From a virus: a stretch of 31,249 nt of DNA. The DNA lies in the IMG/VR virus record IMGVR_UViG_3300020470_000126, positions 1 through 31,249 of that record; one strand, 5' to 3'. Numbering within the stretch: the first letter of the stretch is position 1; each line of letters starts with the position of its first letter. Both the position numbers and the translations under genes were made by a program. Below, in pieces: positions 3,310 to 22,272 of this stretch. A model generated the notes under the pieces. It made no database searches. It saw only the letters and a program-made list of their open reading frames with translations, and was not told the DNA's origin.

Positions 3310-3792
3310 ATGATAACACTAGAATTAAAAAAATTAGTGTTAGTATTCTTCGCATTATGTATTTCCTTGACCAATACTAGCACAGCAAGTGAGTTAACTC
3401 ACAAGTTTGGTAATCCCGCTTTTAGCAAAGAGGGATATTCTCAACATGCATTATCTATAGAACAATTACAATACACTAGAGAAAATGACAGAATTAAAGA
3501 TGAGAAATCTGCATTATCTCAAGCAGAGAGAGATGAAAAAAATAAAACAATTAATAAGTTTATTGCGAATGTAGAAAGTCGTATCTATGCTAACTTATCT
3601 AAACAATTAGTTGATAATATGTTTGGCACAAGTTGTACATCTGATTGTGCAACAAGTGGAACGGCAGAAGTAGAAGGTTCAACAATTTATTGGGTGAAAG
3701 ATACTTCAACAGAAATTATAACATTGACAATAACTGACCCAGCAGGAACAGTATCAACATTATCTGTACCAGTTGGTGACTTTATATTTTAA
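3310..3792 (+). CDS. csgF: CsgF-like curli assembly factor
   Basis: A 160-residue secreted protein. Residues 1-27 look like a signal peptide (KKLVLVFFALCISLTNTSTAS). The mature N-terminus ELTHKFGNPAFS matches the CsgF pattern (FxNPxF) by which CsgF inserts into the CsgG pore, and the C-terminal half (ITLTITDPAGTVSTLSVPVG) matches the CsgF beta domain. In Enterobacteria CsgF couples subunit secretion to nucleation at the cell surface. It is followed directly by CsgG, as expected for partners. There is no Shine-Dalgarno sequence; the late promoter ends 5 bases before the ATG. Confidence 0.82.
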   Translation: MITLELKKLVLVFFALCISLTNTSTASELTHKFGNPAFSKEGYSQHALSIEQLQYTRENDRIKDEKSALSQAERDEKNKTINKFIANVESRIYANLSKQLVDNMFGTSCTSDCATSGTAEVEGSTIYWVKDTSTEIITLTITDPAGTVSTLSVPVGDFIF

Positions 3793-3799
3793 AAAAATT

Positions 3800-4615
3800 A
3801 TGAGTTGGACTTATGTACTAATATTTTTAGCAGGCATGTGTCTGTCTGGTTGTTCGACAACAATGGGAAGTTATGTCGAATATTCAGAGAAGCCTTTTAC
3901 ACAAACTTCTAGAACAGGAGATTTGTTAAGAGGTGTACCTGATTTAGACCAAGAAAAAATAACTATTGCAATTTATGATTTCCCTGATAGAACAGGACAG
4001 AGAAAACCTAATGATAGATTTTCTCAATTAAGTACGGCAATTGGCCAATCACCAGAATCGTATTTAATAGATGCACTTAAAAAAGTAAGTGGTGGTGATT
4101 GGTTTATTGTAGTAGAAAGAAAAGGTTTACAGAACCTAGTTAGAGAAAGACAACTAGTTAGGTCAACAAGATTAGAATATGATGGTGAGCAAAAAGCAAA
4201 TAATGTACTAAAACCACTAATATTTGCTGGACTTATTATTGAGGGTGGTATTGTCAGTTACGATACTAATATCGTAAGTGGCGGTGATGGTGCAAGGGCA
4301 TTCGGTATTGGGGCTTCCAAACAATATCGAACAGACCAAGTGGCAGTTGCCATGAGGGTAATAGCAGTGCAAACAGGAGAAGTGTTGATGACAGTATCAG
4401 CGAACAAAACTATTGCAAGTTATCAGACTGGTGCTGATGTCTTTAGATTCTTTGATTTAAGAACTAAGGCCTTAGAGATAGAAACTGGTGAAGCTGTAAA
4501 CGAACCCATAGATTATGCTATTCGTTCTGCCATTGAGTATGCAGTTTTGAAAATGGTTGAAAAGGGCGAAAAATTAGACTATTGGAAGTTCAAAAAATGG
4601 AGAGTAGAAGAATGA
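3800..4615 (+). CDS. csgG: CsgG-like outer-membrane curli secretion channel (lipoprotein)
   Basis: A 271-residue lipoprotein: a short hydrophobic signal ending in the lipobox LSGC, so the mature protein begins at Cys18. The body matches CsgG: IAIYDFPDRTGQRKP, an ERKGLQNLVRERQ segment, AGLIIEGGIVSYDTN before the first transmembrane hairpin, and a VAMRVIAVQTGEVLMTVSANKTI strand segment. CsgG forms a nonameric outer-membrane pore for amyloid subunits. The ATG at 3800 was chosen over an upstream TTG because it begins the signal peptide. CsgE, CsgC and CsgD are not seen nearby. Confidence 0.9.
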   Translation: MSWTYVLIFLAGMCLSGCSTTMGSYVEYSEKPFTQTSRTGDLLRGVPDLDQEKITIAIYDFPDRTGQRKPNDRFSQLSTAIGQSPESYLIDALKKVSGGDWFIVVERKGLQNLVRERQLVRSTRLEYDGEQKANNVLKPLIFAGLIIEGGIVSYDTNIVSGGDGARAFGIGASKQYRTDQVAVAMRVIAVQTGEVLMTVSANKTIASYQTGADVFRFFDLRTKALEIETGEAVNEPIDYAIRSAIEYAVLKMVEKGEKLDYWKFKKWRVEE

Positions 4616-5295
4616 AAAAAATAATCACAATATTATCGGTGATGTTTATTTCGTTATCAGTTTATGCTAATGACATTTATATAAACCAATCTGGTGCTAC
4701 ATTAGATTTAGATGTAACACAAGATGGTCAAAACAACACAGTAGGTAGTTCTACAACAGCTTCTAGTGTGATTGGTGCGACAACAAACTTGGCAATTACA
4801 CAAGTTGGTAATAATAATGTCATGACTTTTGATGTTAATGGTGCGACCTATACAGGTACATTCTCTGTAACAGGTAACTCAAACAATATAGACTTTAATT
4901 GTGATAGTGCAGGAAATAATAGTTCTTGTGGTACTGCAACAGCATCTATCGTTTGGGTAGGTTCATCTAACGACCTTGATATAGATATTGGTGAAACGGC
5001 AGCAGCTACTAATGCAACAGTAACTATTACTGGTGCAAGTGGTAGTGATAGTAACACAATTTTGGGTACAATAGATGGTACTTCAGCAATACTAACATTA
5101 TCAGTCAATGGAGATACAAATAATTTCTTAGTTGATATAGATGGTGATGGTGATGTAAATGGTCACACATATATTCATACACATACAGGTTCTATCGCTG
5201 ATGTTGATATAACTCAAAGTGGTGTTTATGACAACATGATAACATTAACAACATCTGGTGATAATCACGATATAGACATAACACAAACAGACTAA
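4612..5295 (+). CDS. Curlin-like repeat protein 1 (secreted amyloid candidate)
   Basis: A 227-residue protein starting at an ATG overlapping the csgG stop. It has a signal peptide (MKKIITILSVMFISLSVYA) and a mature start DIYINQSG. The body is rich in N, T, S, D, G and V and carries degenerate curlin-type repeats: INQSG, VTQDGQNN, ITQVGNNN, ITQSG, ITQTD. These Q and N ladders are the hallmark of CsgA/CsgB beta-solenoid strands. A more degenerate middle (residues about 80-180) has repeated DIDI/NGDTNN-type strands. It is the likely cargo of the CsgG channel. Whether it polymerises is not known. Confidence 0.78.
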   Translation: MKKIITILSVMFISLSVYANDIYINQSGATLDLDVTQDGQNNTVGSSTTASSVIGATTNLAITQVGNNNVMTFDVNGATYTGTFSVTGNSNNIDFNCDSAGNNSSCGTATASIVWVGSSNDLDIDIGETAAATNATVTITGASGSDSNTILGTIDGTSAILTLSVNGDTNNFLVDIDGDGDVNGHTYIHTHTGSIADVDITQSGVYDNMITLTTSGDNHDIDITQTD

Positions 5296-6395
5296 TGAAA
5301 AAGTTTTTTATTATGATGTTATTGTTTAGCACTAATGCATTTAGTGCGTCTATTGGTGATGTTATATTACAAGAAGGTAGCGGTATTGTAGAAAGAAAAG
5401 ATGGTGGTGAGTTTTCTAGTATAATAGACTTAGACATCTTTTCTTATGATACCGTTAAAACTGGCAAAGGTAAAACTGCCATTGAATTTGTTGATGATAC
5501 TAGAGTAGATGTAACAGAACATTCTAAACTAGTAATTGATGAATTTGTTTATGACCCAAATACAAAAACAGGTGCCTTGTCATTAAAGGCATCTTTGGGT
5601 ACAGTAAGATATGCCTCTGGTCAGATTGCAAAAAACTCAAAACAAAATGTAAAGATAGAAACACCAACTGCAACAATCGGTGTTCGTGGAACAGACTTTA
5701 CAATGACCATAGATGAAACAGGTAGTTCTACAATTATACTATTACCATCATGTGATACAAGTGGTAATTGTTATGTTGGTGAGATTGATGTAACATCAGA
5801 TGCTGGACAAGTTATATTAAGTCAAGCATTTCAAGCCACAGTTGTAGAAACAGTATCTAGTAGACCTATGAAACCTGTAACATTAGACATAGATGAAAAC
5901 TTAATAGGTAATTTATTAATCATATCTAAACCAAGAGAAATAGAAGAACAACAAAATAAAGAAAAACTTGCTGTAATTGCCAATGCATTAGACTTAGACT
6001 TTCTAGAGTTTGAAGAATTAGATGTAGATTATTTAGAAGATGAAACTGAAAATTGGGCAACAGGATTAGACATAGATTTTCTAGAGCAAAATTTCTTGGC
6101 AGATATTCTTGAACAAATTAATAGACAACTTGCCTTACAAATGAGAAATGAATTTGACAAAGAAAAAACAAGAGGAGATGTTAAATTAGGTAAAGACCCA
6201 GAAACAGGTATTATATTATTAGATGAAGACCCAAATTGGTTTTGGAGTAGAGAGGATGCTGCTGGCAATAAAATTGAATTAAGACTAAACAAAGAGTATG
6301 GTTATGTACTAAATATAACACAACAAGATTTTGAAATTATAGATTACGAAATAGGGGGAGTAGAAAATGACATCACAATTTATCAAGCTCAGTAG
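5295..6395 (+). CDS. Secreted FecR-domain protein
   Basis: A 366-residue protein with a signal peptide (KKFFIMMLLFSTNAFSA), then a FecR-type domain at about 20-150: IGDVILQEGSGIVER, DTVKTGKGKTAIEFVDDTRVDV, SLGTVRYASGQ and the typical TPTATIGVRGTDF. The C-terminal half (about 200-366) is acidic and helical, with no recognised domain. Outside TonB signalling, FecR domains occur in periplasmic or surface proteins near CHASE2 cyclases. It starts in a TAATG overlap and its end overlaps the next gene by 29 bases, so translation is tightly coupled. The role may be to scaffold or sense the repeat proteins. Confidence 0.8.
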   Translation: MKKFFIMMLLFSTNAFSASIGDVILQEGSGIVERKDGGEFSSIIDLDIFSYDTVKTGKGKTAIEFVDDTRVDVTEHSKLVIDEFVYDPNTKTGALSLKASLGTVRYASGQIAKNSKQNVKIETPTATIGVRGTDFTMTIDETGSSTIILLPSCDTSGNCYVGEIDVTSDAGQVILSQAFQATVVETVSSRPMKPVTLDIDENLIGNLLIISKPREIEEQQNKEKLAVIANALDLDFLEFEELDVDYLEDETENWATGLDIDFLEQNFLADILEQINRQLALQMRNEFDKEKTRGDVKLGKDPETGIILLDEDPNWFWSREDAAGNKIELRLNKEYGYVLNITQQDFEIIDYEIGGVENDITIYQAQ

Positions 6396-7311
6396 TTTAC
6401 TTATGTTGTTAATACTGTTAACTTCATATGCTTCTCTTTCTTTTGCAAATGAAATTTATATAAATCAAAGTGGTAGTAGTGTAGATATTGATATAACACA
6501 GGATGGTGAAAATAATAGAGTGTCAACAAAAAGTACAGCACAATCACCTGCTACACTTTATGGTAATAATCAAACTATAAATTTTTCACAAACAGGTGAT
6601 AATAATAAAATAGGTTTATACAAACACTACTATGGTTCAGATGGTCAAACATCTAGTACAATGTCAGCAGAACAATTAGGTAGTAATAATACAATGTATC
6701 TAGATAATCATGGAGATGATAATAATATTTACGCTATCCAAAAAACACATAATTCAATCATGGACTTAGAAATTGATTATGATAGTAATACAGTTTATGC
6801 TAGACAAAGATGTTCTAGAGGTTCAAATTGTGAACAAGACCATATGATACTTAATGCTTACACAGCAAATAATAATACAATCAAAATGGGTCAAGGATAT
6901 AATATATCAACAAGTGGTAATTGGGAATATGATGGCACAGAATATGGTGGTCACTATATGAATCTACTTGTAACTGGTGATAGAAACAATATAACTTTAT
7001 CAAGTAGAAACAATGATTCAAATACAGAACATACTCAAAATGTTAATGTGTATTCAGATGATAACAATGTTCAAATACAACAAACACATGGTCATGATAA
7101 AACTGCCACACTAAACATTTATAATGATGACAATACTGTACATTGGAAACAAATAAAAAATGCTGGACATACTGGCACAGTAAGTTTAAATGGTTCATAT
7201 GGAACTAATTTAAGTGTAACACAAAAAAGTAATTCAACAGCACAATCTTACTCACTATCACAAACTTGTAATACATCTGGTGGTTGTTCTATATCAGTAA
7301 CACAACAATAA
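6367..7311 (+). CDS. Curlin-like repeat protein 2 (secreted amyloid candidate)
   Basis: A 314-residue protein with a signal peptide ending near SFA and mature start NEIYINQSG, nearly the same as protein 1 (DIYINQSG), so the two are paralogues. Repeats are clearer here: ITQDGENN, FSQTGDNN, EQLGSNNTM, NHGDDNNI, VTGDRNNI, VYSDDNNVQIQQ, VTQQ. Spacing of roughly 20-25 residues suits a beta-solenoid with one strand-turn-strand unit per repeat. A cysteine pair (CSRGSNC) and a C-terminal CNTSGGC could form disulfides. Probable second substrate of the CsgG/CsgF channel. Confidence 0.8.
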   Translation: MTSQFIKLSSLLMLLILLTSYASLSFANEIYINQSGSSVDIDITQDGENNRVSTKSTAQSPATLYGNNQTINFSQTGDNNKIGLYKHYYGSDGQTSSTMSAEQLGSNNTMYLDNHGDDNNIYAIQKTHNSIMDLEIDYDSNTVYARQRCSRGSNCEQDHMILNAYTANNNTIKMGQGYNISTSGNWEYDGTEYGGHYMNLLVTGDRNNITLSSRNNDSNTEHTQNVNVYSDDNNVQIQQTHGHDKTATLNIYNDDNTVHWKQIKNAGHTGTVSLNGSYGTNLSVTQKSNSTAQSYSLSQTCNTSGGCSISVTQQ

Positions 7312-7313
7312 TT

Positions 7314-9161
7314 ATGAAAAAATTTTTAACTCATTGGACATTCTCGTTCATAACTCTTATTGCTTTAACTTTTATTGGTTTACAAGAACCATATGTCAAA
7401 GAAATATTAAAATTAAAATCATTTGACATTCTGATACAACAAGAAGAAAAAGAATTATCACAAGACATTGGTATAGTTACGATAGATGAAAAGGCAATTG
7501 AAAAGTATGGACAATGGCCTTGGTCAAGAAATGTCATTGCAGAGGTCATAACAAATTTAAGACAATCAGGTGCTGGTGTGATTATGATACCTATACTATT
7601 TTCAGAAGAAGATAGATTAGGTGGTGATGATATATTATCACAAACATTGATAGACAATGGTGTTGTGATTGCACAAGTAGGTACATCTCAAATCAATAAA
7701 AACTCTGTTCCAAGAGGAGTTGCAAAAATAGGAAATCCATTACCATATCTTTTTGAGTGGGATGGTATGTTAGGGCCAATCCCGATGCTAGGTCAAAATG
7801 CAAATGGAGTTGGTGTAATCAATACTGCACCAGAAATAGATGGTGTTGTAAGAAGAATACCATTGATAATGAGAATAGGTGAAGACACTTATCCTACCAT
7901 GGCAGTAGAAGTGATTAGAGTTGCAACAGGTAATCCAAGTTATCAAGTTAAGGCAGGTGATGGCGGAGTTCAAGCAATAAGAGTACCAGGGTTTCCTATT
8001 ATCAATACAGACCCAAATGCTAGAATCTGGTTACATTGGAACAAACAGTTTGAAATTATATCAGCCTCAGAGAATAACTTTTCAAAGTTTGAAGGTCGTA
8101 CTGTAATTATAGGAATGACTGCAGAAGGTCTAGGTGGAATTATTGCAACACCAGTTGGTGAACAATATGATTATATGTTATCGGCATCCACATTACAAAC
8201 TATGATAGATGGCAAACAAATTAATCGTTATGACATTAGTTCATTTTTAGAATTAGTTTTATCTTTTATTCTAGGTATTGTAGTTATACTGATTGCAAGA
8301 TTTACACCTTATTGGTTTGTTGGTTTAAGTTTACTATCACTTTATGGTATAAGTGTTTATGGTTCTTATTATCTGTTTAACACACATTTAATATTATCAG
8401 ATGTCAGTTGGATAATTATTGTAATCACTATAGTTGGTATGCATAGTATCTTTAACAGATTCATTTTAGAGTTTAGATTAAAACAACAAATAAGAAAACA
8501 ATTTGAAACTTATCTAGACCCAAGACAAGTTGCAGAGTTACAGAAAGACCCAAGTAAATTAAAACTAGGTGGTGATAGAAAAGAGATGAGTTTTCTGTTT
8601 ATGGATATTGTAGGATTTACACCAATATCAGAATACTATAAAAACAAAGATGACCCAGAGGGATTAGTTGAAGTTATCAATGACTATCTAAATCGTATGA
8701 CTAAGATTGTTTTGAATAATGGTGGAACAGTTGATAAGTACATGGGTGACTGTATTATGGCATTTTGGAATGCACCACTTGATTGTGAAGACCATGCAGA
8801 GATGGCAGTTAAGACTGCTATCGAATGTGCAGAAGAAACAGAAAGACTAAAACAGAATTTTAGAGAAAGAGGACTACCAGATATCAATATAGGTTCTGGT
8901 GTCAATACAGGAACATGTATAGTTGGTAATATGGGTAGTGATACTAGATTCGATTATTCAGTCATTGGAGATGCGGTAAACTTGGCCGCAAGATTAGAGG
9001 CAGCAACAAGAAATTACAAAGAGGAAAATGGTGGTATTGTATCTACCCTCTATTCTTCCTATACTATGGAAAAACTTAAAACCATCAAATCAGTAGAAGT
9101 TGATAAAATCAAAGTCAAAGGAAAGGAAGAATTAATCACAATCTACAAACCCTCTAAATGA
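7314..9161 (+). CDS. CHASE2 sensor-class III adenylate/guanylate cyclase
   Basis: A 615-residue membrane enzyme. One N-terminal membrane segment (about 8-24), an extracytoplasmic CHASE2 domain (about 30-300, with IGIVTIDEKAIEKYGQWPWSR), three membrane segments (about 311-383), then a cytoplasmic class III nucleotide cyclase domain. Metal-binding aspartates are D431 (FMDIVGFT) and D479 (KYMGDC); K475 and S549 fit the adenine-selecting pair of the IIIb subtype; N556 and R560 are the transition-state residues. All catalytic residues are present, so it should make cAMP. It starts 3 bases after curlin-like protein 2 and closes the cassette. A complete receptor cyclase is unusual in a phage. Confidence 0.9.
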   Translation: MKKFLTHWTFSFITLIALTFIGLQEPYVKEILKLKSFDILIQQEEKELSQDIGIVTIDEKAIEKYGQWPWSRNVIAEVITNLRQSGAGVIMIPILFSEEDRLGGDDILSQTLIDNGVVIAQVGTSQINKNSVPRGVAKIGNPLPYLFEWDGMLGPIPMLGQNANGVGVINTAPEIDGVVRRIPLIMRIGEDTYPTMAVEVIRVATGNPSYQVKAGDGGVQAIRVPGFPIINTDPNARIWLHWNKQFEIISASENNFSKFEGRTVIIGMTAEGLGGIIATPVGEQYDYMLSASTLQTMIDGKQINRYDISSFLELVLSFILGIVVILIARFTPYWFVGLSLLSLYGISVYGSYYLFNTHLILSDVSWIIIVITIVGMHSIFNRFILEFRLKQQIRKQFETYLDPRQVAELQKDPSKLKLGGDRKEMSFLFMDIVGFTPISEYYKNKDDPEGLVEVINDYLNRMTKIVLNNGGTVDKYMGDCIMAFWNAPLDCEDHAEMAVKTAIECAEETERLKQNFRERGLPDINIGSGVNTGTCIVGNMGSDTRFDYSVIGDAVNLAARLEAATRNYKEENGGIVSTLYSSYTMEKLKTIKSVEVDKIKVKGKEELITIYKPSK

Positions 9162-16280: not shown

Positions 16281-16610
16281 ATGATAGAAATAAATGGTAA
16301 ACAATTAGAAGTAGATGAAGAAGGTTATCTTTCTAATCTAAATGATTGGGAAAAAGATGTTGCAACAGTAATGGCAAAAGAAGATGGTATTGATTTATCA
16401 GAAGACCATTGGGAGATAATTAATTTTCTTCGTGAGTATTATGAAGAATATCAAATTGCACCTGCCGTTAGAGTTTTAACAAAAGCAGTAGGAAAGAAAT
16501 TAGGAAAAGATAAAGGTAATAGTAAATATCTTTATGAGTTATTTCCATATGGCCCTGGTAAACAAGCATGTAAATTTGCTGGATTACCTAAACCAACAGG
16601 TTGCGTATAA
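16281..16610 (+). CDS. dsrC: DsrC, two-cysteine sulfur carrier of the Dsr pathway
   Basis: A 109-residue protein of normal DsrC length. It has the expected DEEGYLSNLNDWEKDVA start, the HWEIINFLREYYEEYQIAPAVR core and the flexible C-terminal arm ending GKQACKFAGLPKPTGCV. Both redox cysteines are present: C97 and the penultimate C108, separated by 10 residues, which defines true DsrC rather than TusE. The arm carries a sulfur atom as a trisulfide to or from DsrAB and hands electrons to the membrane complex. Phage dsrC genes have been reported from sulfur-oxidiser viruses. Confidence 0.93.
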   Translation: MIEINGKQLEVDEEGYLSNLNDWEKDVATVMAKEDGIDLSEDHWEIINFLREYYEEYQIAPAVRVLTKAVGKKLGKDKGNSKYLYELFPYGPGKQACKFAGLPKPTGCV

Positions 16611-17317
16611 TGTCAAAAAAGAAAGAAATACATTCTGGTGATTTGGTAAAAATTGAACCAATTACAGATAATCAAAAATTAGTATTTGAAGGTCATAAAG
16701 CAGAGAAGAATGGTTTTTTCTTTGGATGTGCTGGTACAGGTAAAACATTTGTATCATTATATCTTGCATTACAAGATGTTCTTAAACATGGAACACCATA
16801 TGAAAGAGTTGTGATTGTTCGTTCATTGATACCAACAAGAGAAATAGGATTTCTACCTGGTGATGAAGAAGACAAGGCAGCATTGTATCAAGTGCCATAT
16901 GCAAACATGGTACAGTTTATGTTCAAACAACCTAATGAAGATGCATTTAGAGGGTTATATGATGCACTTAAAAGACAAGGAAGTTTACATTTTGTATCAA
17001 CATCATTTTTGAGAGGATTAACTTTTGACAATTCAATTATTATAGTTGATGAATGCCAAAACTTAAACTTTCATGAATTAGATACTATTATCACAAGAGT
17101 AGGACAAGATTCTAAAATAATATTCTGTGGTGATTTTAGTCAAACAGATTTAACAAAAACAAATGAAAGAAATGGTCTACATGATTTTTTAAGAATACTA
17201 GAGAACATGGAAGAATTTAATTGTGTAGAATTTGACATACCAGATATTGTAAGGTCTGGTTTTGTAAGAAACTATTTAATTGAAAAAACTAAACTTGGTA
17301 TAGGGGTAGACTTGTGA
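16610..17317 (+). CDS. phoH: PhoH-like P-loop ATPase
   Basis: A 235-residue protein of the PhoH family, common in marine phages. Walker A is GCAGTGKT at about 39-46, followed by the PhoH-specific VRSLIPTREIGFLPGD and Walker B IIVDECQN at about 144, then FCGDFSQTDL (sensor region). ATP-dependent; RNA helicase/nuclease-linked activity is reported in bacteria, and the phage role is unclear. Start is the ATG in a TAATG overlap with dsrC. Confidence 0.9.
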   Translation: MSKKKEIHSGDLVKIEPITDNQKLVFEGHKAEKNGFFFGCAGTGKTFVSLYLALQDVLKHGTPYERVVIVRSLIPTREIGFLPGDEEDKAALYQVPYANMVQFMFKQPNEDAFRGLYDALKRQGSLHFVSTSFLRGLTFDNSIIIVDECQNLNFHELDTIITRVGQDSKIIFCGDFSQTDLTKTNERNGLHDFLRILENMEEFNCVEFDIPDIVRSGFVRNYLIEKTKLGIGVDL

Positions 17318-17760: not shown

Positions 17761-18429
17761 ATGGCATTATTAGATTTCCCTGTCTTAAAAACAAAGACAG
17801 TTGATAAACAAAGATTTTATATAACACCAGAGGGTAATGAGTATCCCTCTATTACCACAGTTCTGTCACCTCGAAATAAAGAAGGTTTGATGAAGTGGCG
17901 TAAGAAAGTTGGAAATGATGTTGCAACACACATAGCAAATAAGGCCGCAGTAAGAGGTTCGAAAGTTCATAAAATGTGTGAAGATTATCTAAATGGATTA
18001 GATATGGAAAAACATAAAAAAGACTTTTTACCTTATTGTTTATTTAACGAATTAAAAGATAAGACTTTTGACAACATAAATGAAGTGATTGGACAAGAGA
18101 TAACTTTATATTCTGATAAATATAAAGTAGCAGGAAGAACAGATTTGATAGCAAACTATAAACATGAGTTATCAATCGTAGATTTTAAAACATCTACAAA
18201 TGAGAGAAAGGATTCTTATAATGAAAATTACTATATTCAAACTGCGGCATATGCTGAAATGTTTGAAGAATTAACAGGTCAACCTATTAATCAAATAGTA
18301 ATTTTAGTTGTAACAGAAAATGGTACAGTACAAGAGTTTATTAAAGATAAACAAGAATACTTACCATTATTAGAAGAAACATTAGAGGAGTGGTACAATG
18401 CAGGTAACTTGGACAGAGAGTGCAGCTAA
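17761..18429 (+). CDS. PD-(D/E)XK exonuclease (RecB/Cas4-like)
   Basis: A 222-residue nuclease. Motifs appear in order: [11 protein letters not shown] (about 61-71, catalytic His region), [22 protein letters not shown] (D of motif II) and [10 protein letters not shown] (DxK), then [12 protein letters not shown] (motif QxxxY). This is the single-stranded/end-processing nuclease fold of RecB and Cas4, without a 4-cysteine cluster, so closer to phage exonucleases. It ends overlapping the iscA-like gene by 32 bases. Confidence 0.82.
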
Positions 18430-18724
18430 TCAAGCAAAAGTAATATTAGCAGGTGAGGGTGATGATAGATTAAATGTTCGTTGTTTCATACAAGGTGGTG
18501 GATGTTCTGGTTTTCAATATGGATTTACATTAGACCAACAAAAAGAAGATGACTATGTATTTGAAACAAATGGTGCAAAGTTATTGATAGACCCAATGAG
18601 TGGCGTTTATTTCAATGGGGCAACAATAGATTACAAAGATGACCCACTAAACGGCAGTATGTTTATAATCAATAATCCAAATGCAAAATCAACCTGTGGT
18701 TGTGGAAGTAGTGCGGCGTTCTAA
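18398..18724 (+). CDS. A-type iron-sulfur cluster carrier (IscA/ErpA/HesB-like)
   Basis: A 108-residue member of the HesB/IscA family. All three conserved cysteines are present: C36 (GGGCSGF) and C100/C102 (STCGCGSS), which bind and pass on Fe-S clusters. That separates it from DsrR of sulfur oxidisers, which is IscA-related but lacks these cysteines. It abuts dsrA with one base between stop and start, which suggests translational coupling and that the carrier helps mature the [4Fe-4S] clusters of DsrA. Ribosome site AGAGGAG 7 bases before the ATG. Confidence 0.9.
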
Positions 18725-18725
18725 C

Positions 18726-20021
18726 ATGTCAGTAAAAGAAGAAGAAATAAAAAACTTTCAGTCTAGTATTAAATTTACTAAACATGAAACACCTATGTTA
18801 GATGAGTTAGAGAATGGCCCATGGCCTTCTTTTATTTCTGGTATCAAAACACTTAGAGATAAACACCCAGAAGAAAGAATTAATAAAATGACTAATGACT
18901 TATTAGGTCAATTAGAACATTCGTATGAAACAAGAAAAGGTTATTGGAAAGGTGGTACAGTATCAGTTTATGGATATGGTGGTGGTATCATACCTAGATT
19001 CTCAGAAGTAGGTAATCAATTCCCAGAATCAAAAGAGTTTCATACATTAAGAGTGCAACCACCTGCAGGTAATTACTATACAACAGATGCACTTAGAAAG
19101 TTAGCAGATTCATGGGAAAAGTATGGTTCTGGTTTGGTCACATTTCATGGTCAAACAGGAAACATTATGTTTATAGGTTCTACCACAGATGCCACTCAAC
19201 ACTTTTTTGATGAAATAAATGATTATGGATTTGATTTAGGTGGAGCAGGGCCATGTGTTAGAACTGCTATGTCATGTGTTGGTGCAGGCCGCTGTGAAAT
19301 GTCGAACATAAACGAACATAAGGCACACAGACTTTTAGTTAATAACTTCATGGATGATATGCACAGACCTGCTCTTCCATATAAATTTAAATTCAAAGTA
19401 TCGGGTTGTCCTAATGACTGTATGAACAGTATTGAAAGGGCAGATATGTCTATCATAGGAACATGGCGTGATGACATGCAAGTAAATCAAGAAGAATGGA
19501 AAAAATTCTTAAAAGAAAAGGGAAGAAAATATGCGATTGATAATATCATCACTAGATGTCCTACTAATTCTTTATCTCTTAGTGATGATGATACACTTGA
19601 TGTAGATAACAAGTCTTGTGTAAGATGTATGCATTGTCTGAATGTTGTTCCTAAGGCATTACACCCAGGTGATGATAAAGGTGCAACAATTCTAATGGGT
19701 GGTAAAAGAACATTGAAGATTGGTGACCTTATGGGTACAGTCATTAAACCATTTATTAAATTAGAAACAGAGGAAGATTGGGAATATCTAGTAGAGCTTG
19801 CAGAGAAAACAATAGACTTCTGGGCAGATAACGCATTAGAACACGAAAGATGCGGTGAGATGATTGAACGAATAGGATTACAAAACTTCTTAGATGGTAT
19901 CGAAGAAGATGTAGATGTTAATATGGTTGGTCATCCTAGAGAATCAAGTTATGTTAGAACAGATGATTGGGATGAAGAAGCTAAGAAGTGGTATGAAAAA
20001 GCAGATGAAAGAATTGCTTAA
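18726..20021 (+). CDS. dsrA: DsrA, dissimilatory (reverse-type) sulfite reductase alpha subunit
   Basis: A full-length 431-residue alpha subunit. The DsrA block TVSVYGYGGGIIPRF and ESKEFHTLRVQPPAG is followed by GLVTFHGQTGNIMFIG. Siroheme-[4Fe-4S] ligands are complete: C184, C190, C228 and C232 (SCVGAGRC...GCPNDC). A ferredoxin-type domain uses C278 (RCPT) and C298, C301, C304 (SCVRCMHC). DsrAB is an alpha2beta2 enzyme. DsrB is not in the window, so the phage subunit presumably pairs with host DsrB. The ATG at 18726 fits DsrA length better than the upstream frame opening. Viral dsrA is known from SUP05-type phages. Confidence 0.93.
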   Translation: MSVKEEEIKNFQSSIKFTKHETPMLDELENGPWPSFISGIKTLRDKHPEERINKMTNDLLGQLEHSYETRKGYWKGGTVSVYGYGGGIIPRFSEVGNQFPESKEFHTLRVQPPAGNYYTTDALRKLADSWEKYGSGLVTFHGQTGNIMFIGSTTDATQHFFDEINDYGFDLGGAGPCVRTAMSCVGAGRCEMSNINEHKAHRLLVNNFMDDMHRPALPYKFKFKVSGCPNDCMNSIERADMSIIGTWRDDMQVNQEEWKKFLKEKGRKYAIDNIITRCPTNSLSLSDDDTLDVDNKSCVRCMHCLNVVPKALHPGDDKGATILMGGKRTLKIGDLMGTVIKPFIKLETEEDWEYLVELAEKTIDFWADNALEHERCGEMIERIGLQNFLDGIEEDVDVNMVGHPRESSYVRTDDWDEEAKKWYEKADERIA

Positions 20022-20027
20022 AAATAC

Positions 20028-20056
20028 TTGACATTTTTGTAACAACCTAGTATAAT
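20028..20056 (+). promoter_or_regulatory. Near-perfect sigma70 promoter upstream of the second dsrC-like gene
   Basis: TTGACA (20028-20033), 17-base spacer, TATAAT (20051-20056): both hexamers match consensus. It begins 6 bases after the dsrA stop. Predicted start near 20063, leader about 18 bases. It would give the downstream pair (dsrC-like, gene 33) an early or middle promoter of their own. Confidence 0.85.
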
Positions 20057-20080
20057 GGTTTTAAATAATTGGAGTATATT

Positions 20081-20377
20081 ATGGATTTAAACAGAGATGG
20101 TGACGGCTTTTTAGTCAATACAAATGACTGGTCAGAAGAAGTCATGAATCAAATGGCAGAAGAAGATGATTTTGTCATTACAGATGAAATCAAAACCTAC
20201 ATAGACAAAGCAAGAGAAATGTATAATGAAACAGGAACAGTTCCTGCAGTGCGCAACTTTGCAAAAGAATTTGGAATGGATAGAAAGGCAAGTAAGTTAT
20301 ATGAAGTTTTTAAATCAGGCCCAATGAAAAAGATTGCAAAATATGGTGGATTACCAAAACCAACGGGTTGTGTTTAA
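20081..20377 (+). CDS. Single-cysteine DsrC/TusE-like sulfur-relay protein
   Basis: A 98-residue DsrC-family protein with a strong ribosome site (GGAG, 6 bases upstream). It keeps the GDGFLVNTNDWSEEVMNQMAEED start, VPAVRNF core and the terminal GLPKPTGCV. Only the penultimate cysteine (C97) remains; the position of the second cysteine is A86 (GPMKKIAKYGG). Single-cysteine members behave like TusE, which relays sulfur for tRNA 2-thiouridine, and cannot form the intramolecular disulfide of DsrC. The window therefore has two paralogues with different cysteine chemistry. It ends in a TAATG overlap with gene 33. Confidence 0.85.
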   Translation: MDLNRDGDGFLVNTNDWSEEVMNQMAEEDDFVITDEIKTYIDKAREMYNETGTVPAVRNFAKEFGMDRKASKLYEVFKSGPMKKIAKYGGLPKPTGCV

Positions 20378-20610
20378 TGACTGATGATAAAAATACAGTC
20401 CACACCCCTAAGACATTTTCATTAGAGATAGAAAAGATTGCATTTGATAAAAGATGTACACATCTTGATGCAATATCTATCTATTGTGAAAAAATGGGTA
20501 TTGAACCTGTATCAGTTGCAAAATTATTAACAAAAAGTTTAAAAGAAAAAATAGAGGCAAATGCAAGAGATTTAAATTATCTTCCAAAGGCGGCAAAATT
20601 ACCTTTATAA
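20377..20610 (+). CDS. 33: gp33-like late transcription coactivator
   Basis: A 77-residue protein. KTFSLEIEKIAFDKRCTHLDAISIYCEKMGIEPVSVAKLLTKSLKEKIEANARDLNYLP matches short cyanophage-type gp33, the T4 protein that bridges RNA polymerase and the sliding clamp for late promoter firing. It sits upstream of the gene 59 homologue, as in T4 (33-59-32). Coupled by TAATG to the single-cysteine dsrC-like gene, so both come from the sigma70 promoter at 20028. That makes the late switch and the sulfur protein co-transcribed. Confidence 0.75.
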   Translation: MTDDKNTVHTPKTFSLEIEKIAFDKRCTHLDAISIYCEKMGIEPVSVAKLLTKSLKEKIEANARDLNYLPKAAKLPL

Positions 20611-20674: not shown

Positions 20675-21697
20675 ATGGCAATTAAAAATGCAAAAACTTT
20701 TGCTCAGGTTCAAACTGAGCTTCAAAACTTACCACTTGGTGAACACAAACTAATTGATATAGTTAAAATAATCAAACAATGTGAAACATTTAAAGATAAA
20801 ACACTTGATAGTTTTAAACCTGCTATAATTGATGAATCAGAATCTACTGTAAATTTAGATGAAGTATATGTTGATTTAACTTATCAAAGAAAACTTAAAC
20901 TAAAAAAATTATTACAACACTTACAAAGGTCAGGTGGATTTAGTTTGGAAGAAGCAGGTCATATTGATATTGCAGTTCGTTCAAATAAAAAGAAATTTGT
21001 ATGGGACGGATTTAGAAGGTCAATCATGGCTTTATTATGCGGTATGATAAGACTTGAACATTCATGTTATACACATACTGCACCTACAATAGAACTACAA
21101 AGAATAAAAGAGGCAGAACTTTTTACTGTTAGAAATGCAAAATCTGAAAGAATGGGTGCAGATGAAATATTTTTTGCAAGATATGCGGCTGGTGAAGAAT
21201 ATGCAAAAGATATGAAACATGTTTTAGATAGAGCAAACATTAATATTTGTGGATTAAAACCTGGTGGTAGAAATATGGGTGGATTTGCATTTGTTGAAAA
21301 AGAACTAGGTTATCAAGAGAGAGAACATGGTTCTTTAGTTGATAAAAACATATTAGATGATGATTTTGTCTGGGCATCAGAGCAACTTCAAGATAACTTT
21401 GAAGAAGGTCAATTATCATCATATCTCGTTTGTGCTTTGGCAAATACTAGACAAGTATTAAAAAATGATAATGAATCAGATATTAAAGATGAGCTCTTTA
21501 GTGAGAATTTTAAAGAGTGGGCTTCAAAAGAAGGTAATAAACAAAAAACTTTAATAGAAAAACCTATAAAAAATAGAGTAATAGAAACTATTACATTTAG
21601 AATATTAAGAGAAATCGTAAAACTAAATGGTAGAGCTCAAACTCTTTCAGGTTTATCAAAAGAAGATTTAGAACTATTAGAGGATTTAGAAGACTAA
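20675..21697 (+). CDS. ParB/Srx-like domain protein (phage-conserved)
   Basis: A 340-residue protein with AGGAGA upstream. YVDLTYQRKLKLKKLLQHLQRSGGFSLEEAGHIDIAVRSNKKKFVWDGFRRSIMALLCG (about 69-126) resembles ParB/Sulfiredoxin-like nuclease folds found in phage proteins (Y-Q-R, then a D-G-x-R-R motif, giving the usual GxxR box). The rest is alpha-helical with a charged C-terminus (SGLSKEDLELLEDLED). In phages such proteins may act on DNA or in partition-like roles. Placed between genes 33 and 59, which are usually adjacent in T4. The family call is tentative. Confidence 0.55.
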   Translation: MAIKNAKTFAQVQTELQNLPLGEHKLIDIVKIIKQCETFKDKTLDSFKPAIIDESESTVNLDEVYVDLTYQRKLKLKKLLQHLQRSGGFSLEEAGHIDIAVRSNKKKFVWDGFRRSIMALLCGMIRLEHSCYTHTAPTIELQRIKEAELFTVRNAKSERMGADEIFFARYAAGEEYAKDMKHVLDRANINICGLKPGGRNMGGFAFVEKELGYQEREHGSLVDKNILDDDFVWASEQLQDNFEEGQLSSYLVCALANTRQVLKNDNESDIKDELFSENFKEWASKEGNKQKTLIEKPIKNRVIETITFRILREIVKLNGRAQTLSGLSKEDLELLEDLED

Positions 21698-21705
21698 AAT
21701 AATTA

Positions 21706-22272
21706 ATGCAACCAATAGATGCGTATTTGATGTACTGTGCGATGAAAGCACACTTTGATAAAAGTGATTATGACTTTGTAAAATACAATGGTAAATCCAA
21801 AGTATCAAGAGATTCATTCTATAAAAGGAATGATAGAGTTTTCTTTGTCAAACTAACTCGTAAATATAAAAGTAAACAAGACATACAAGACTATTTACTT
21901 GCTAATTTTTTAATACATCCAAAAGGTTGGGTGGGTAAGTTTGATGAAGATAACTATATACATTGGAAGAAGAAAATACAAAGTTTAAGTTATACATTTA
22001 AATCGGAGATTGAACCTATATTAGATTCAAAACTTATTGCGGTATCTGAAAATACGCATCCTAAATTACTAAAAGAATATCTTGGTAAAAGAGTGTCACT
22101 AGAGAGCATGGTAATACTTAATAGTATATTAGGATTTAGTAAAATGTGGAATGTTAAACTTGAAGAAGATTATACATGGAAAGATGTTTCTAAACTTATG
22201 AATGATTACAAAAGTTTTTTAAAATTCGATGCAACAAAATTTAAATTTGTTTTAAAAGAATTAATGTCATGA
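21706..22272 (+). CDS. 59: gp59-like helicase (gp41) loader
   Basis: A 188-residue protein, close in length to T4 gp59 (217). The pattern MQPIDAYLMYCAMKAHFDKSDYDFVKYNGKSKVSRDSFYKRNDRVFFVKLTRKYK... matches gp59 homologues: the N-terminal HMG-like helices and the DAY...K..HF...YD...Y signature. gp59 loads gp41 helicase onto gp32-coated DNA at forks and recombination intermediates. In T4 it lies just before gene 32; here an accessory block of about 2.5 kb intervenes. Confidence 0.85.
   Translation: MQPIDAYLMYCAMKAHFDKSDYDFVKYNGKSKVSRDSFYKRNDRVFFVKLTRKYKSKQDIQDYLLANFLIHPKGWVGKFDEDNYIHWKKKIQSLSYTFKSEIEPILDSKLIAVSENTHPKLLKEYLGKRVSLESMVILNSILGFSKMWNVKLEEDYTWKDVSKLMNDYKSFLKFDATKFKFVLKELMS

Follow-up and report, generated by a model that had tools for sequence, protein, structure and literature searches.

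The short, single-cysteine DsrC protein (DsrC_1) encoded by this virus, a marine T4-like phage, is, on balance, best read as a sulfur carrier of host origin, whose gene is an optional first cistron of the gp33–gp59 transcription unit and is expressed from the predicted promoter of that unit. The window, which is the whole stretch of DNA analysed (31,249 nucleotides of record IMGVR_UViG_3300020470_000126), also encodes a two-cysteine DsrC and the alpha subunit of a reverse-type sulfite reductase. The features on which the argument rests are listed in Table 1.

Table 1. Position and supporting evidence of the features discussed in the window.
Feature	Position	Strand	Evidence
Two-cysteine DsrC (C97, C108), 109 aa	16281–16610	+	PF04358, 163 bits; overlaps phoH (TAATG)
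phoH, overlapping the end of the two-cysteine dsrC	16610–17317	+	PF02562, 146 bits
IscA/ErpA-type iron-sulfur protein, upstream of dsrA and dsrC_1	18398–18724	+	NF010147 (ErpA), 137 bits, above cut-off
dsrA (reverse-type sulfite reductase alpha), optional at the locus	18726–20021	+	TIGR02064, 606 bits for the longer frame 18681–20021
Predicted sigma-70-type promoter TTGACA-17-TATAAT of the gp33–gp59 transcription unit	20028–20056	+	12/12, conserved position
Single-cysteine short DsrC (dsrC_1)	20081–20377	+	98 aa; PF04358, 86 bits; TIGR03342, 78 bits; AF2 model; tree
gp33-like late-transcription coactivator	20377–20610	+	PF16805, 68 bits; phrog_254
340-aa protein of unknown family, between gp33 and gp59	20675–21697	+	no Pfam or PHROG match
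gp59-like helicase loader	21706–22272	+	PF08993; phrog_269

The two DsrC proteins of the window

The start of dsrC_1 was placed at the ATG of position 20081, which is preceded by GGAG a few bases upstream, in place of the TTG at 20069 given in the mechanical ORF list. The sole cysteine of the 98-residue protein is the penultimate residue, C97, and residue 86, at the CysB position, is alanine. In the two-cysteine DsrC this residue corresponds to C108 (CysA), and CysB is the one that DsrC_1 is missing. An earlier sequence-only reading of this DNA had described a second DsrC with one redox cysteine and alanine at the other position, which is what was found once the numbering is aligned in this way; its coordinates were also right (−35 element from 20028, −10 element to 20056, end of the ORF stop codon at 20377).

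The two proteins are 44% identical to each other. DsrC_1 scored above the curated cut-offs of both PF04358 (86.3 bits against 24.9) and TIGR03342 (77.7 bits against 53.5). That reading had also proposed structural modelling of the DsrC proteins; the AF2 model of the short one presents the DsrC fold, with a mean pLDDT of 89.8, and its best Foldseek match is the DsrC of A. vinosum (1yx3; TM 0.80, E 7e-7). The C-terminal motif GGLPKPTGC is invariant across the short-subfamily rows of alignment A2, and the median dN/dS of 0.10, calculated for phage dsrC_1 copies and one host copy, corresponds to purifying selection; therefore, the C-terminal arm of the short DsrC is in use. DsrC sensu stricto has both CysA and CysB, and DsrC_1 has C97 only. 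Judged from its sequence, a CysA–CysB disulfide is impossible in a protein that lacks CysB.

Gene order and promoter

TTGACA-17-TATAAT at 20028 is the sole site in the window, on either strand, that matches the consensus at 12 of 12 positions, with four more sites at 11/12; 0.11 perfect sites are expected by chance per sequence of window length under a first-order Markov model. For the comparison of promoter and gene order, eighty relatives from IMG/VR were set against the genes of the window. The clade of the window has the order phoH–lysozyme–exonuclease–iscA–(dsrA)–promoter–(dsrC_1)–gp33–gp59, with the optional genes in brackets. Most of its members present a perfect TTGACA-17/18-TATAAT, which ends 22–26 bases 5′ of dsrC_1, with dsrA upstream or not. 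The predicted promoter had been ranked among the strongest of the window; it is the only 12/12 site there, and most relatives have it in the equivalent position.

The same perfect promoter is found directly 5′ of gp33 in four phages with dsrA and without dsrC_1 (L188, L198, L199 and L205), and it also precedes gp33, with shorter leaders, in three others of this type (L185, L193 and L196). Therefore, the promoter is that of the gp33–gp59 unit, in which dsrC_1, when present, is the first cistron; its stop overlaps the gp33 start in the window (TAATG). The proposal that dsrC_1 has its own promoter is thus rejected, since the perfect promoter stays before gp33 where dsrC_1 is absent. Promoter and dsrC_1 are not always linked, as seen in L002–L009, in which dsrC_1 comes after iscA and has no perfect promoter. 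L013, L015 and L060 have a perfect promoter 5′ of exonuclease–gp33–gp59, with dsrC_1 downstream of gp59; the gene follows gp59 throughout L013–L016 and L060–L066, and is located elsewhere in L012, L018, L046 and L077. The stretch from dsrA to dsrC_1 showed no terminator, so read-through from dsrA is possible. As for other virus records, G016 (the record of L179; 60 kb, with dsrA and dsrC) has 21 perfect TTGACA-16/18-TATAAT sites, against five in a 124-kb relative of the window.

The genes that had been described as a dsrC–dsrA block do not form one, as phoH, lysozyme, exonuclease and iscA/erpA lie between the two-cysteine dsrC and dsrA. The ATG of dsrA at 18726 adjoins the iscA stop. No dsrB was found in the window, and the phage DsrA would have to pair with a host DsrB. 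In L018, dsrC_1, the two-cysteine dsrC and dsrA are consecutive, with TAATG overlaps; separate timing of the two forms is therefore not general and, going by this gene layout, both DsrC forms sometimes share an operon.

The window also encodes a protein that joins a glutaredoxin domain, at its N-terminus, to a ribonucleotide reductase small chain (467–1699); a curli-type block (3310–9161) with CsgF (PF10614), CsgG (PF03783), a FecR-domain protein, a CHASE2-adenylate/guanylate cyclase and two proteins with curlin-like INQSG repeats and no Pfam match; and a protein matching the haem-dependent oxidative N-demethylase alpha subunit-like family PF11927 (14042–14815).

Probable host origin of the dsrC genes

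The two-cysteine DsrC of the window is 94–95% identical to DsrC of marine Gammaproteobacteria, and several of those contigs also hold dsrA. The same genomes encode a second, short, one-cysteine DsrC, which in L276/L280 is 94% identical to DsrC_1 (alignment A1), with the same length and alanine at CysB. In three genomes the host gene has dcd on one side and a CIA30-domain gene on the other, with mrp/apbC and metG further along, and these neighbours indicate that it is chromosomal and does not come from a stray phage contig. Because alanine is already present at CysB in the chromosomal host gene, the cysteine difference predates the phage gene, and the earlier picture of a paralogue that lost a cysteine has to be abandoned. 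Across the short subfamily, the CysB position is occupied by cysteine in a few bacterial members, by threonine or serine in many, and by alanine in hosts and phages.

Duplication within the phage is rejected on the basis of the tree described below, in which the phage short DsrC groups with the host short genes, and from their sequences the two phage dsrC genes look like separate acquisitions. Marine gammaproteobacterial sulfur oxidisers are likely the source of the two-cysteine phage gene as well. Joint capture of iscA and the short dsrC was also considered and is not supported, as identity between the phage IscA and the ErpA encoded near the host short DsrC is only 55%.

Within the host lineage, L284 (9284–9872) and L289 carry tandem overlapping copies of the short one-cysteine dsrC. 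No functional partner was found in the neighbourhoods of the host short dsrC at the loci examined; mnmA, about 6.5 kb from the tandem copies in L284, was discounted as a partner, with icd, iscR and iscU between them. In L263–L270, also of the host lineage, a DsrC-family member without any C-terminal cysteine (ending in SRRKGGY) is encoded on the contig of the dsr operon.

Phylogeny, distribution and relation to TusE

In the DsrC/TusE tree (118 rows and 110 columns, with weak inner forks and long rows possibly misplaced), phage DsrC_1 and the host short genes were included in a short subfamily with support of 100/100 and a branch of 2.22. The TusE clade (100/97) and the two-cysteine DsrC are both separate from it. 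A profile of the short subfamily was built from 14 members, and genomes with a score of at least 109 bits were taken as carriers, the next score being 95. By this measure, 42 of the 274 gammaproteobacterial genomes carry the subfamily. Of these 42 genomes, 40 have dsrA, whole or as a sizeable part, versus 54 of the 232 others (Fisher 1.5e-19, uncorrected for relatedness). In G085, one of the two dsrA-negative carriers, dsrE and dsrC share a contig, and dsrA may therefore simply not have been assembled. The short subfamily is absent from 54 of the 94 dsrA-positive genomes and is therefore not essential to the pathway.

Only one TusD/DsrE match exceeded the cut-off in most dsrA-positive genomes. 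Each of the ten putative genomes of the host lineage has one and no more, near the dsrC of the dsr operon, and six of the ten have MnmA above the cut-off. From these gene contents, we infer that every carrier of the DsrC/TusE type in cells of this kind would receive its sulfur from DsrEFH alone.

The sequence-only reading had compared the single-cysteine form with TusE. A functional TusE, passing sulfur from DsrEFH to the host MnmA so that tRNA 2-thiouridine is still made under high translation demand, is a rather unlikely identity for DsrC_1, which nevertheless shares the TusE pattern of CysA kept and CysB replaced, with alanine where TusE-type proteins have alanine, serine or threonine (PMC3397948). 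The short DsrC is also the sole single-cysteine family member found in several host genomes, MnmA being present, and a TusE function for one-cysteine phage proteins is likewise proposed by Kieft et al. 2021 (PMC8190135). However, the tree places DsrC_1 outside the TusE clade, and its bacterial relatives are nearly all restricted to dsrA-positive genomes, not spread among MnmA-positive ones at large. The neighbourhood does not support this identity either: no tus genes, tusBCD included, adjoin the short dsrC in the loci examined, neither in phages (iscA, dsrA, gp33) nor in hosts (metG, mrp, dcd), and there is no tRNA gene in the window. In the NCBIfam TusE equivalog, DsrC_1 reached 54 bits against a cut-off of 191, which none of the 274 genomes reached either, so that this cut-off says little here. 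The chromosomal orthologue, with its association with dsrA, offers a cultivable handle on the role of the one-cysteine protein and argues against a plain TusE role; such a role keeps some probability because organisms with DsrEFH only could need their own carrier to MnmA.

Proposed mechanism

The DsrEFH complex of A. vinosum hands the sulfur on DsrE-Cys78 over to the penultimate cysteine of DsrC, a step for which Cys100 (CysB) is dispensable, and CysB has been proposed to close the sulfite-releasing disulfide (PMC3397948). Since the penultimate cysteine suffices for loading in that organism, a protein with the penultimate cysteine only would be loaded and would not run sulfite release; loading without the release step should apply to DsrC_1 by analogy with a homologue at no more than 44% identity. 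In the favoured reading, that of a host-derived carrier, C97 of DsrC_1 would take sulfane sulfur during infection from DsrE of the host DsrEFH, the presumed donor because no other TusD/DsrE-type protein was found in the host genomes. As CysB is missing, DsrC_1 would form no intramolecular disulfide and would hand the sulfur on, with no sulfite release by the DsrC cycle. In this way it may divert sulfur from the DsrC/DsrAB branch to a separate pool, leading either to tRNA thiolation through MnmA or to persulfides that are parked or serve regulation in connection with sulfur oxidation. Candidate acceptors of the sulfur would be MnmA, DsrAB or such a pool. The earlier suggestion that a single-cysteine form makes no internal disulfide and can still carry sulfur agrees with the retention of CysA and the absence of CysB, the carrying itself being expected from the behaviour of A. 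vinosum DsrC.

More tentatively, the short single-cysteine subfamily might be a third, unrecognised carrier of the reverse-Dsr pathway, apart from DsrC and TusE, and phages might have two alternative ways into the host pathway, dsrA or the carrier at the same locus, with the carrier under the gp33 promoter.

Alternation of dsrA and dsrC_1

The locus was scanned with gp59 as anchor, which selects neither dsrA nor dsrC_1, and among the best 80 matches 69 contigs had enough sequence 5′ of gp33. Sixteen of these contigs have dsrA only, 46 have dsrC_1 without full dsrA, three have both and none has neither; in the other four, dsrC_1 is present and dsrA could not be judged. The window itself carries both genes. 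The Fisher p-value of the alternation among these best 80 matches, 1.5e-12, is overstated, as the contigs are related and not independent. A dsrA remnant of 28 residues is kept in seven of the 46 dsrC_1 contigs, and such remnants indicate that at least some of the phages with dsrC_1 only descend from dsrA carriers. In L211, L214, L222 and L242, a remnant of about 28 codons (residues 283–310) lies between iscA and dsrC_1. An unidentified insert of about 1 kb is located between dsrC_1 and gp33 in L006, L025, L045 and L049, and between dsrA and gp33 in L209, L219, L221 and L245. Inserts on either side of the optional genes occur here as in a gene-exchange hotspot.

The two genes thus appear at the locus as if they were alternatives, rarely together, which is one of two points for regarding DsrC_1 as a dominant competitor or sulfur sponge; the other is that the missing CysB would block the disulfide step proposed for DsrC (PMC3397948). 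Such a protein would load on DsrEFH, leave the DsrC cycle incomplete, and throttle or re-time the sulfur oxidation of the host. We consider this improbable: a form that the host itself keeps on its chromosome is not harmful as such; dsrA occurs together with both DsrC forms in the window and in a few other phages; and the alternation, seen among related phages, could be plain replacement of one gene by the other at a hotspot. A regulator, acting on transcription through a helix-turn-helix-like region of the DsrC fold and the coupling with gp33 in the clade of the window, is very improbable, as the Foldseek matches to LexA and TetR domains are weak, cover about 50 residues and are not significant (E at least 0.45), the coupling is not universal (see the gene orders above), the residues that do not vary belong to the sulfur-carrying arm, and a literature search on DNA binding by DsrC returned nothing relevant.

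Comparison with known systems

Both the single-cysteine dsrC of phages (dsrC_1) and the combination of dsrA with two dsrC genes in one phage are already known, from publications of 2014 and 2021. Roux et al. 2014 describe a dsrC_1 in SUP05 phages from which the second C-terminal cysteine and an insertion are missing (PMC4164917, after Anantharaman et al. 2014), and Kieft et al. 2021 figure phages with dsrA and two dsrC genes and report that 112 of 141 phage DsrC have only one of the two cysteine motifs, that of the second cysteine (PMC8190135). The one-cysteine DsrC is by this count among the commonest sulfur genes of marine phages, and its role has been guessed to be TusE-like or non-functional. 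The argument of Roux et al. that the missing insertion means loss of function is weakened, because the DsrC of D. vulgaris, which binds DsrAB, also lacks the insertion.

The gene studied here resembles the published marine phage group in lacking one C-terminal cysteine and the insertion of 7–8 residues (alignment A1 against the description in PMC4164917, as excerpted), a membership that rests on the published description, with Lau218 as the only sequence compared. The ownership of the promoter by gp33, the chromosomal host orthologue, the link with dsrA-positive genomes and the replacement of dsrA and dsrC_1 at one locus are new relative to the excerpts of the two papers (PMC4164917 and PMC8190135), where they are not reported. 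The first of these is also a warning that the time of expression of an auxiliary gene should not be read from the promoter in front of it.

Among individual proteins, the host short DsrC (L276/L280, L275 and L277) is the closest, with identity of up to 94%, the same length, one cysteine and alanine at CysB; it differs in being chromosomal, beside dcd and mrp and not gp33, with no perfect promoter upstream. The DsrC of Lauvirus lau218 (KJ183193), a vent podophage, is also a short DsrC, annotated as sulfur transfer protein and 51% identical, but it belongs to another phage family and gene context and has a long branch in the tree among the threonine-type short forms. The DsrC of A. vinosum and of the hosts shares the fold and the penultimate cysteine with DsrC_1, whereas it has two cysteines and falls in a separate clade. 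TusE of the E. coli type is similar to DsrC_1 in having one functional cysteine and CysB replaced, yet it forms its own clade, has the insertion, and is encoded beside tusBCD and in dsrA-negative genomes.
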